Part shown: piece by piece, positions 57,669 to 61,639 of the stretch | Layout: every line of letters begins with the position of its first letter | How positions within the stretch are numbered: position 1 is the stretch's first letter | NCBI GenBank assembly: GCA_021202395.1 | Contig: JAJQDC010000020.1 | Span: 1-64,000, forward strand | DNA: 64,000 nt | From: Clostridia bacterium | GTDB taxonomy: Bacteria > Bacillota > Clostridia > Christensenellales > Borkfalkiaceae | Direction of reading: 5' to 3' | Made by a program: the position numbers and the translations under genes | Notes under the pieces: generated by a model | Database searches by the model: none | What the model was told of the DNA's origin: nothing | The model's input: the letters and a program-made list of their open reading frames with translations, nothing else

Positions 57669-58547
57669 GTGCTGAACTTTCAGGATAAATACAGCGAATA
57701 TCTGGCTATATTCAATTCGCGGCTGGAAAAATTTTGTTCAGAGCTTGATTGTAAACCTGATATTCTTGCTGAAAGTATAAAATATACGCTTATAAACGGC
57801 GGTAAACGGGTGCGCCCCGTTCTGATGCTTGCCACGGGCGAACTTATCGGTGCAGATAAAGAATCTCTTTCTGATTTTGCGCTTGCGCTTGAGCTTATCC
57901 ATACCTACTCGCTTATACATGACGATCTGCCCGAAATGGACAACGACGACTTCCGCAGGGGCAAACCTTCAAGCCATAAAGTGTTTGGGGCGGGTAACGC
58001 TGTGCTTGCGGGCGACGGTCTGTTAAATACCGCATACGCAATACTTTTTGATTGCTGCAAACGGGGCAGGGAGTATGCCGATGCTGCCAAATTTTTGTGC
58101 GACTGCGCGGGAATAAACGGCATGGTGGCAGGGCAGTCTGCAGACCTGTACTGCGAAAAAAATGCCATATGCGACGAAGAATGGTTAGAGTATATAGTTT
58201 TAAATAAAACGGCAAAGCTTATTACTGCGGCTACCACGGTGCCTTCTGTTTTAAAGGGCGGCAGGTACTTTTTGGAACTTAAACAGTTTGGTGAAGATCT
58301 TGGCAGGCTATTCCAGATTGTAGACGATATCTTAGACGTTAAGGGCAGCTTTGAAAAGATGGGTAAAACGCTTGGAAAAGATAAAAACGAAAATAAGCTT
58401 ACCTACGTAAATTTTTACGGCATGGACGAAAGTTGCGTTTACGCAGATATAATTTACGACAAGTGTATAAAAATTCTTGACGGGATAGACGCAGATACAG
58501 AATTTTTAAAGCAATTTGTATCATTTGTACGCCACAGGGATACATAA
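57669..58547 (+). CDS. ispA: Polyprenyl (farnesyl/geranyl) diphosphate synthase
   Basis: GGKRVRPVL; LIHDDLPEMDNDDFRRGKPSSH; FQIVDDILD. Confidence 0.95.
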   Translation: MLNFQDKYSEYLAIFNSRLEKFCSELDCKPDILAESIKYTLINGGKRVRPVLMLATGELIGADKESLSDFALALELIHTYSLIHDDLPEMDNDDFRRGKPSSHKVFGAGNAVLAGDGLLNTAYAILFDCCKRGREYADAAKFLCDCAGINGMVAGQSADLYCEKNAICDEEWLEYIVLNKTAKLITAATTVPSVLKGGRYFLELKQFGEDLGRLFQIVDDILDVKGSFEKMGKTLGKDKNENKLTYVNFYGMDESCVYADIIYDKCIKILDGIDADTEFLKQFVSFVRHRDT

Positions 58548-58599: not shown

Positions 58600-58628
58600 T
58601 TGACATTTTAATAAATGTGTGTTAATAT
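58600..58628 (+). promoter_or_regulatory. Dedicated promoter upstream of the OLE RNA
   Basis: TTGACA (58600-58605)-N17-TAATAT (58623-58628). Confidence 0.7.
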
Positions 58629-58635
58629 AATATCA

Positions 58636-59205
58636 ATATAATAGTGGTGCAGTATTCTAGTCAGTTGTTGATGATACGAAGACGGGGTTAAACTACCGTT
58701 AAAGGGCATATCGATGAAGTTTCTGGTGTCTGCTTGGTTTGCCCAAATTCGGGTGGATGCTGGGAGTAAAGGTGTATGGGAACTGCATAACGGCATATGA
58801 CAGCCTACCCATTCACCGTGGAGGCAGACGGCACAAATGACTGCCGCCTGTATAAACCTGCTATCGGGCGAAAGCTCGGTACAGAGTAGCCTGCCTTGCG
58901 TGAAGTCAGCGGATAGCAGATCTAAGCGTGCCTATATGTGGCCACGTATAGCTTACGCTATCGCTGCTTGAAATTGATTTTGCAAAAGAGGATAAGCTCA
59001 TCATCAGCTGCCAAGGAAAGCTTCTAGACTGTTAAAGTATTAGAGATTACGGTGTGGTCTCAGTGGCGATTCGGTTATGTATTCGGAAACGGTACAAACG
59101 TGTTTTTAAAAGGAAACTGCTTCTTCGGCGACGGGAAGTAAGCGCGGGGGAAATCCTACCGAACCTTAAGCCGCAAAGTTTATTTAATATAAGCCACTTT
59201 TATAT
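58636..59205 (+). ncRNA. ole: OLE RNA (ornate large extremophilic RNA)
   Basis: ~570-nt GC-rich, hairpin-rich non-coding region exactly between ispA and a small TM protein followed by dxs-tlyA-nadK-argR-recN, the established OLE neighbourhood; internal stems CTGCTATC(58858-58865)/GATAGCAG(58912-58919), CGGGC-GAAA-GCTCG (58865-58878), AGGC..GGCA/TGCCGCCT (58822-58849). Confidence 0.88.
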
Positions 59206-59212
59206 TTTATTT

Positions 59213-59241
59213 GCGCACATAAATTATGTGCGTATTTTTTT
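59213..59241 (+). terminator. Intrinsic terminator between OLE RNA and oapA
   Basis: CGCACAT-AAATT-ATGTGCG followed by TATTTTTTT. Confidence 0.75.
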
Positions 59242-59255
59242 ACAGACGGATTTAT

Positions 59256-59906
59256 ATGGATATAGACGATAATTGTAACAATAAAAACAGCGTAAAAGAA
59301 GACGGCGGTGAAGAAAGTTCTGAACAGGAAACTACGCCCAAACCAGCTAAAAAGCCTAAAAAGAAAAAAAAGAAAGTACCTTCATGGGTAAAATGGGGAT
59401 TTTTCGTCCTTATTCTGTCTTTTATATTAAGCTTTTTGTTCAGCCTTTTAACAGAAGTTTCTATAAACGATGACAGCCCGATTTATGTCTGCATAATAGT
59501 GCTTGTTGTGCTTTTGTGTTTAAATATTTTCTGCGACATGCTTGCAAACGCAGTGCTTTCCTGCAATGCAGAAGGGTTTAACGCAATGGCTTCAAACAAA
59601 ATAAGGGGAGCCAAACGCGCGGTAAAGTTCTGCAAAAATTCAACAAAAATTGCAAGCGTATTTGCCGACGTAATCGGCGATATATGCGGCATTGTGAGCG
59701 GTGCCGTAGGTACCACGTTTGCGGCGTATTTTGCTTTTGTAGAAAACGATATCGCCTTAATGTTTATCTCTATTATCATAAGCGCGCTTATAGGTGCGCT
59801 TACGGTTGGCGGAAAAGCGTTCTGTAAAACACTTGCCATTAAATATAATAAACAGATAACTTTTGCTTTTGCAAAGTTTACTACGTATTTTAAAAAGGAA
59901 AAGTAA
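59256..59906 (+). CDS. oapA: OLE-associated protein A (OapA)-like membrane protein
   Basis: Lys-rich N-terminus then about four hydrophobic helices; position directly downstream of OLE RNA and upstream of dxs; ATG at 59256 preferred. Confidence 0.8.
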   Translation: MDIDDNCNNKNSVKEDGGEESSEQETTPKPAKKPKKKKKKVPSWVKWGFFVLILSFILSFLFSLLTEVSINDDSPIYVCIIVLVVLLCLNIFCDMLANAVLSCNAEGFNAMASNKIRGAKRAVKFCKNSTKIASVFADVIGDICGIVSGAVGTTFAAYFAFVENDIALMFISIIISALIGALTVGGKAFCKTLAIKYNKQITFAFAKFTTYFKKEK

Positions 59907-61639
59907 TGCTCGAAAATATTACGTCTGCAGACGTAAAGGGTATGGATGCTGACGCCCTTAACGTGCTGTGTGAAGAACTGCGCAATAAAATAATTTCCAC
60001 CGTGATGACTAACGGCGGACACCTATCTTCTAACCTGGGTGCGGTAGAACTTACCGTTGCCCTTCATTACGTGTTTGATTTTCCGCGCGATAAGGTTATT
60101 TTTGACGTAGGGCACCAGTGTTACGCCCACAAACTTTTAACGGGCAGGGCTGCGGAATTTGATACCCTGCGCAAGCGTGGCGGGCTGTCAGGATTTCCCA
60201 AGCGTGAAGAAAGTGTATACGACTGCTACAATACCGGGCATGCAGGAACTTCCATATCGGCGGCTTTGGGTATGGCTAAGGCAAGGGACGTAAAGGGGGA
60301 AGATTACAACGTTATTGCCGTTATAGGCGACGGTTCTTTTAACAACGGGCTTGTGTACGAGGCATTCAACAGCTTAATTCCATTAAATACAAATATACTT
60401 GTAATAATTAATGATAACGGTATGTCAATTTCGCCCACGGTTGGCAGTATGCATGAATATCTTGAAATCTTAAGCGACGATTCCGGGAAAAAACAAAACC
60501 GCCACCCCAGGGCAGGCATGTTTGAAAAATTCGGCTTTAAATACGAGGGCGTGTATGACGGCAACGACGTACAAAGCCTTATATCCGTTTTACAGGATAT
60601 AAAACAAAGATTAAAGCACGAATCGGTAATTTTACATATACAGACAAAAAAGGGTAAGGGTTATGCTTTTTGTGAAGACAACCCCGAAGCCACTCACGGA
60701 ATTTCTGATGAAGGTGTAAGCCCCGCAAAGGAAGAATACAGCGAAGTATTGGGTAAAACTCTGTGCTCGCTTGCAGAAAAAGATCAAAGAATTGTAGCCG
60801 TAACCGCCGCAATGACGGGCAGCCTTGGGCTTTCTTCCTTTTTTGAAAAGTTCCCCGGCCGTTCTGCCGACGTAGGCATTTGCGAAGAGCATGCAACCAT
60901 TTTATGTGCTGCAATGGCGGCGGAAGGGCTTAAACCCTATTACGCCGTTTATTCCACCTTTTTACAGCGCTCTTACGACGAAATTATAATTGATATCTGC
61001 AGCCAGAATCTGCCCGTTACCATATGTGTAGACAGGGCTGGTGTATCAGGGCCAGACGGCGAAACGCATCAGGGGGTATTTGATTTATCTTTCCTTTCCC
61101 CGATACCAAACCTTACGATAGCCGTTCCCAAAGACACAGACGAACTTAAAGAGATGCTGCAGTTCAGCGTTAATTTCAGCGCTCCGCTTGTAATACGTTA
61201 TCCGCGTGAATGCCGCCATAAGTTTCCTTCCAACAGTAAAGTGGAATGGGGCAAGTGGGATGTTCTTGCGCAGGGGGACGGTAAGGCGGCAATAATTGCC
61301 TGCGGCGAAAGAGCGATAACAAGGGCTTATTCGGCTGCAAAAATATTAAAAAAGAGCGGAATTTCCCCCAAAATTATAAACGCAAGATTTATTAAACCGC
61401 TTGACGGCGCAATGCTTGACGGTTTAGCCGAAGACCACGTGGTTACGATAGAAGATAACGTGTGCACCGGCGGGCTTGGTTCGCTTGTTGCAAGCTATTA
61501 TGCCGAGAGCAATAAATCTGTAAAATGTTTTGCGTATAAAGACGAATTTATAGAACAGGGCGGTGTTGAAGACCTTATGGACGATTACGGGCTTAAAGTC
61601 GGCGACATTGCAGATTACATAAAAAATGAGATTGGATAA
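59906..61639 (+). CDS. dxs: 1-deoxy-D-xylulose-5-phosphate synthase
   Basis: VIFDVGHQCYAHKLLTGR; GHAGTSISAALGMA; CVDRAGVSGPDGETHQG. Confidence 0.97.
   Translation: MLENITSADVKGMDADALNVLCEELRNKIISTVMTNGGHLSSNLGAVELTVALHYVFDFPRDKVIFDVGHQCYAHKLLTGRAAEFDTLRKRGGLSGFPKREESVYDCYNTGHAGTSISAALGMAKARDVKGEDYNVIAVIGDGSFNNGLVYEAFNSLIPLNTNILVIINDNGMSISPTVGSMHEYLEILSDDSGKKQNRHPRAGMFEKFGFKYEGVYDGNDVQSLISVLQDIKQRLKHESVILHIQTKKGKGYAFCEDNPEATHGISDEGVSPAKEEYSEVLGKTLCSLAEKDQRIVAVTAAMTGSLGLSSFFEKFPGRSADVGICEEHATILCAAMAAEGLKPYYAVYSTFLQRSYDEIIIDICSQNLPVTICVDRAGVSGPDGETHQGVFDLSFLSPIPNLTIAVPKDTDELKEMLQFSVNFSAPLVIRYPRECRHKFPSNSKVEWGKWDVLAQGDGKAAIIACGERAITRAYSAAKILKKSGISPKIINARFIKPLDGAMLDGLAEDHVVTIEDNVCTGGLGSLVASYYAESNKSVKCFAYKDEFIEQGGVEDLMDDYGLKVGDIADYIKNEIG

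Follow-up and report, generated by a model that had tools for sequence, protein, structure and literature searches.

OLE RNA in a Borkfalkiaceae bacterium: a predicted transcription unit with its own promoter and terminator, nested in the ispA-oapA-dxs operon

Few bacterial RNAs without an assigned function are as large or as conserved as OLE RNAs, and what is said of their biogenesis usually comes from a single species. Non-coding RNA units nested in operons can use a promoter of their own and a leaky intrinsic terminator to set how much RNA is made relative to the protein encoded downstream. In Halalkalibacterium (Bacillus) halodurans, ole is a member of an operon, yet it has its own promoter too, as described by Lyon et al. 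2022 (PMC9723947, citing Ko & Altman 2007). Variant 1 OLE RNAs have shortened P7, P8 and P9 and are missing the OapB site in P13, according to Fernando & Breaker 2024 (PMC11332333). The membrane protein OapA is related to MpfA proteins (PMC12265935, PMC11332333).

Here we compare with these systems an OLE locus from a Clostridia bacterium of the family Borkfalkiaceae, found in a 64,000-nt stretch of contig JAJQDC010000020.1 that we call the window. Using cmscan, the Rfam OLE model RF01071 matched with 412.2 bits (E 1.2e-117), far above the gathering score of 50 bits, and over its whole length (model 1-616 of 616). The initial annotation had named this region OLE RNA from its letters, and the covariance model upholds that identity: the window carries an ordinary RF01071 RNA gene, and a genome search found it to be the only OLE copy in the source genome. 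The genes around it, identified with Pfam profiles, follow the order nusB-folD-ispA-OLE-oapA-dxs-tlyA-nadK-argR, and an open reading frame running past argR at the window end fits a putative recN, which places this OLE in the isoprenoid/recN operon context known for the family. The central part of the locus reads as follows.

57669-58547, forward strand: ispA, polyprenyl/farnesyl diphosphate synthase (PF00348, 177 bits), the upstream operon gene.
58628-59213, forward strand: OLE RNA (RF01071 span), its 5' end inside the promoter -10 region; shortened P7/P8, variant-1-like.
59256-59906, forward strand: oapA, OLE-associated membrane protein (PF01595 CNNM transmembrane domain, 30.1 bits; co-occurrence with OLE).
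59906-61639, forward strand: dxs (TIGR00204, 606.6 bits).

Against NCBIfam FPPsyn the ispA product scored 273 bits, slightly under the cut-off of 275. The OapA score is barely above the PF01595 cut-off of 28.4 bits; the 59256-59906 frame encodes a small, CNNM/MpfA-related membrane protein directly adjacent to OLE. We took ATG 59256 as the oapA start, and a longer frame from 59226 would begin within the terminator stem described below. In the RF01071 alignment, model positions ~205-237 are mostly deleted, which shortens the P7/P8 region, and most of the apical segment of P13 is retained. A search for an OapC candidate returned no PF01248 (L7Ae-family) match in the 96.5%-complete genome, with a positive control in B. 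subtilis. The source genome carries OLE and OapA, yet has no L7Ae-family PF01248 protein. With P7/P8 shortened and OapC unmatched, this RNA falls outside the full-length OLE subtype, which has a complete P7-P8 together with OapB/OapC.

The 5' and 3' boundaries of OLE are marked by the following predicted elements.

58600-58628, forward strand: OLE promoter; -35 TTGACA (58600-58605), 17-nt spacer, -10 TAATAT (58623-58628).
58635, forward strand: predicted transcription start, 7 nt past the -10, from promoter geometry; base 1 of the closing helix.
58635-58648, forward strand: closing helix, 5' strand (P1-like), with GTGG at 58644-58647; MFE pairing and covariation.
59193-59206, forward strand: closing helix, 3' strand, with CCAC at 59194-59197; MFE pairing and covariation.
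59212-59241, forward strand: intrinsic terminator; hairpin at 59212-59234 (10 bp, 3-nt loop, core CGCAC/GTGCG) followed by a U-tract.

The promoter carries an extended -10, with TG at 58620-58621 (TG-t-TAATAT, 58620-58628). An alternative TATAAT at 58626-58631 overlaps the -10 and would require a 20-nt spacer. Promoter-like sites are no commoner than expected in the AT-rich 12-kb region (27 against 28.2 after shuffling) and a lone match is therefore uninformative, so that the promoter call rests on position and conservation. We gathered 306 OLE loci, which reduced to 280 distinct ones: the genus supplied 29, the family 2, the order 82, the class 57 and a GTDB exact-motif scan that takes in cultured Bacilli and Clostridia the other 110. 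All 29 genus loci have a strong promoter immediately 5' of OLE, and 27 of them score at least 12 at this position, compared with 0.5% of shuffles. These promoters are near-consensus, with an extended -10 in most, TTGACA or TTGACT as the -35 in 29/29 and a 17-nt spacer in 28/29. Outside the genus, a promoter precedes OLE in 67/81, 41/57 and 97/107 loci of the wider groups and in both family loci, in total ~84% of those sampled, compared with 10% of dinucleotide shuffles. The window site thus has the -35 and -10 elements, the 16-18 nt spacing and the conserved position of a sigma-A promoter, and OLE genes in general have a predicted promoter of their own. A promoter before the structured region was part of the initial annotation and is borne out throughout the genus; the two are less cleanly separated than it had them, since the Rfam consensus start (uaauau) resembles and overlies the promoter -10 region. 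The RNA 5' end is probably near 58635.

A conserved GTGG near the 5' end of OLE is complementary to a conserved CCAC near its 3' end. In the window the two lie within a helix that joins 58635-58648 to 59193-59206 with one T-T mismatch and that is present in the MFE fold of 58635-59241, where nucleotides 1-7 and 9-14 pair with the 3' tail. Across 170 thinned loci, bases outside GTGG/CCAC differ between loci but still pair. The mean outward run is 3.11 pairs; it falls to 1.25 when partners are swapped (maximum 1.55 in 1000 shuffles) and to 0.74-1.10 when the partner is slid. The closing positions, unpaired in the Rfam model, covary across Bacillota as judged from these loci. The published OLE model has a P1 in domain 2 (PMC12265935); the closing helix may be this P1, and we do not claim it as new. 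In the window the helix begins exactly at the predicted +1, and family-wide the match between +1 and helix end is loose (thinned set; differences mostly -3 to +5, Spearman 0.26).

At the other end of the RNA, the hairpin at 59212-59234 has a predicted stability of -11.7 kcal/mol and is followed by a T7 tract, TTTTTTTA; it ends 21 nt before the oapA ATG. The stem-loop and U-tract that the initial annotation saw between OLE and oapA are therefore present, and they are conserved. Counting only loci where the post-OLE position has both a U-tract and a hairpin at least as stable as -8 kcal/mol, we found a terminator in 25/28 genus loci, compared with 1.2% of shuffles. The frequency was 13/76 in the wider order (6.1% of shuffles) and 11/49 and 29/92 in the other two groups (4.1% and 5.1%). 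With oapA placed by homology, the counts were 25/28 for the genus and 11/71, 8/44 and 20/78 for the other groups. In the genus stem, UACGCAC/GUGCGUA, seven columns are nearly invariant and the exceptions are G-U or terminal only; A-U to G-U changes occur at two stem pairs, and the loops all differ (25/25). The U-tract lies on the 3' side of the hairpin only, in forward orientation only, and is kept though loops and spacers vary. This GC-containing hairpin with its adjoining, conserved U-tract has the form of an intrinsic terminator. Three of the 28 genus loci are without the stem, two of them sister species, and the stem appears to have been lost in at least two genus lineages. Given these losses and the 13/76 in the wider order, the predicted terminator is inessential to OLE. 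A terminator before oapA is unmentioned in the OLE papers we searched, and it is the less documented part of OLE architecture.

We consider it highly probable that OLE in the window is its own transcription unit nested in the ispA-oapA-dxs operon. In the interval from the ispA stop (58547) to the -35, the window locus showed no terminator, which is why the unit is nested rather than separate. The proposed free-standing transcript of ~600 nt holds on the downstream side, where the terminator lies, and does not hold upstream. Between OLE and oapA, no promoter-like site was found in the window or in any of the 28 genus loci, compared with 8.75% of shuffles, and a search for an oapA promoter inside or after OLE in the genus found none. 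Because of this lack of a site after OLE and the 21 nt from hairpin to ATG, oapA would require read-through, starting either at the OLE promoter or further up in the operon, as the initial annotation had proposed and as is the simplest consequence of the arrangement. RNA polymerase would start at the sigma-A-type promoter at 58600-58628, probably at 58635, and transcribe the ~600 nt of OLE; most transcripts would end at the hairpin and U-tract at 59212-59241, with a minority reading through into oapA and the downstream genes. Operon transcripts from upstream could also run through OLE. A strong promoter joined to a leaky terminator would yield abundant OLE RNA and less oapA mRNA. We infer the transcript ends, the efficiency of termination and the dependence of oapA on read-through from sequence. 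In two Clostridium-like loci (L044, L287), oapA is preceded by a promoter-like TGCTATAAT located after the OLE terminator. There oapA may have a promoter of its own, and read-through may not be the sole solution elsewhere.

Three other readings were weighed against the nested unit. Chance might have produced the two signals in AT-rich DNA, a reading that draws on the promoter-like sites being no commoner than in shuffles over the 12-kb region; the position-specific conservation of the signals in 28-29 genus species, and at frequencies far exceeding shuffles across the remaining OLE family, leads us to reject a chance origin, which is vanishingly improbable. OLE might instead be mainly processed from a long operon transcript, with the promoter a minor one and the 3' hairpin an element of stability or processing. 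The H. halodurans RNA is encoded within an operon, and its processing is presumed (PMC9723947, PMC11332333); no terminator separates ispA from OLE in the window, and many OLE loci outside the genus are without a terminator before oapA. However, the promoter is close to consensus at every genus locus, with an extended -10 in most of them, and the U-tract adjoins the hairpin in forward orientation only and is kept while loops and spacers change, so that we regard processing as the main source of OLE as very unlikely.

The remaining reading is that the terminator is a regulated attenuator, in which a stem-binding protein or the assembly of the OLE RNP would choose between termination and read-through and so couple oapA expression to the status of OLE. 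The stem is more constant than its structure needs, with an identity of 0.98 at OLE terminators. By the same measure, 18 terminator-like hairpins located after tmRNA in the genus gave 0.61, a rough control in that some of the 18 may differ from the true tmRNA terminators. A second, equally constant stem, GCTGATAG/CTATCAGC, stands 3' of OLE in 11 Clostridium/Alkaliphilus-like loci, among them Clostridium thermobutyricum, Alkaliphilus, Anaerosalibacter and Sporosalibacterium, and is the sole such palindrome in 5/6 genomes tested; oapA, moreover, lies directly 3' of the terminator. Nonetheless, OLE has no conserved segment complementary to the UACGCAC stem or to the GCTGATAG/CTATCAGC stem, no antiterminator is visible, and we rejected antitermination through pairing within OLE. 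The loss of the stem in the genus also counts against regulation. Specific recognition is weakened further because similar ACGCAC stems also stand after tmRNA and at a few other terminators in some members of the genus. Attenuation is thus an unlikely account of the terminator, and it is correspondingly doubtful that the constant hairpins (UACGCAC in the genus, GCUGAUAG in the Clostridium/Alkaliphilus-like loci) serve as attenuators or binding elements peculiar to each lineage, by which the OLE particle would control the expression of its membrane partner OapA.

The ACGCAC arm lies directly after tmRNA in several genus genomes, the source genome included (L407; also L393, L414, L417, L397, L401), and it appears to be a recurring terminator stem in the genus. 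Two simpler views of the constant stem were also dropped. It does not belong to a genome-wide repeat family, since each genus genome has about 0-5 copies of the UACGCAC palindrome with a loop of at most 10 nt, and it is not exclusive to OLE, longer-loop ACGCAC versions following tmRNA in some genus genomes.

Among the 61 genus genomes, OapA was found in 35, and OLE in all 35, a count that includes three genomes whose OLE is cut at a contig end; the other 26 have neither. Such co-occurrence is in line with what is known of ole and oapA, which are strictly associated. In eight OLE-less genus genomes (loci L377-L384 in G054, G028, G018, G067, G047, G026, G043 and G056), ispA is followed directly by dxs with a gap of ~10-100 nt. 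The promoter-OLE-terminator-oapA cassette is thus present or absent as a unit. OLE-less genomes cluster in the ispA tree and three changes are needed. Relatives with and without the whole cassette form a natural comparison set. Elsewhere in the family, one genome (G071, locus L031) has folD-ispA-OLE-oapA-tlyA, a cluster without dxs and with an OLE without a terminator.

About a quarter of the OLE-bearing genus genomes have a contig that breaks off within OLE or at its border (G009, G011, G015, G016, G021, G022, G052, G055, G010; loci L027-L030, L350, L358, L360, L367, L020). Apparent 5'-truncated genus copies are these contig ends, and we rejected the view that they are degenerate genes. Conservation of OLE between co-resident species probably breaks short-read assemblies; if this is true, OLE would seem absent or truncated in surveys of MAGs. 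The oapA fragments in G010:C45 and G039:C169 have identical contig coordinates and score, which suggests a shared or mis-binned contig.

Taken together, the results suggest that the OLE promoter normally determines where the RNA begins and that the two RNA ends pair in a helix whose start is close to +1, while several lineages, the genus nearly without exception, would end OLE at an intrinsic terminator before oapA. The nested unit offers concrete predicted transcript ends and a possible explanation for an excess of OLE RNA over OapA. When the spacer between ispA and oapA is compared among relatives, as the initial annotation had advised, both of its signals recur in the genus (promoter 29/29, terminator 25/28). 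Its suggestion of a different expression architecture is sustained for the clade-conserved terminator and fails for the promoter, which is family-wide and known in H. halodurans (PMC9723947). The contrast it drew with a usual, operon-processed OLE was overstated, in that the H. halodurans promoter had been reported and most sampled OLE genes have one.

The closest described system is H. halodurans OLE (RF01071), which shares with the window the ole-oapA tandem, a promoter inside the operon and an RNA of ~600-630 nt (PMC9723947). It differs in that its 3' end is described as processed, whereas the window has a conserved predicted terminator before oapA; the window OLE also has a shorter P7/P8, and the source genome has no OapC-family (PF01248) match. 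The variant 1 OLE of TANB77-type uncultured gut bacteria resembles the window in its shortened P7/P8, its small-genome uncultured host and the lack of an OapC-family protein (PMC11332333). The window differs from other nested non-coding RNA units in having a large structured RNA that is part of an RNP, with the protein partner of that RNA encoded by the next gene downstream. The window OLE is an expression variant of a known RNA.
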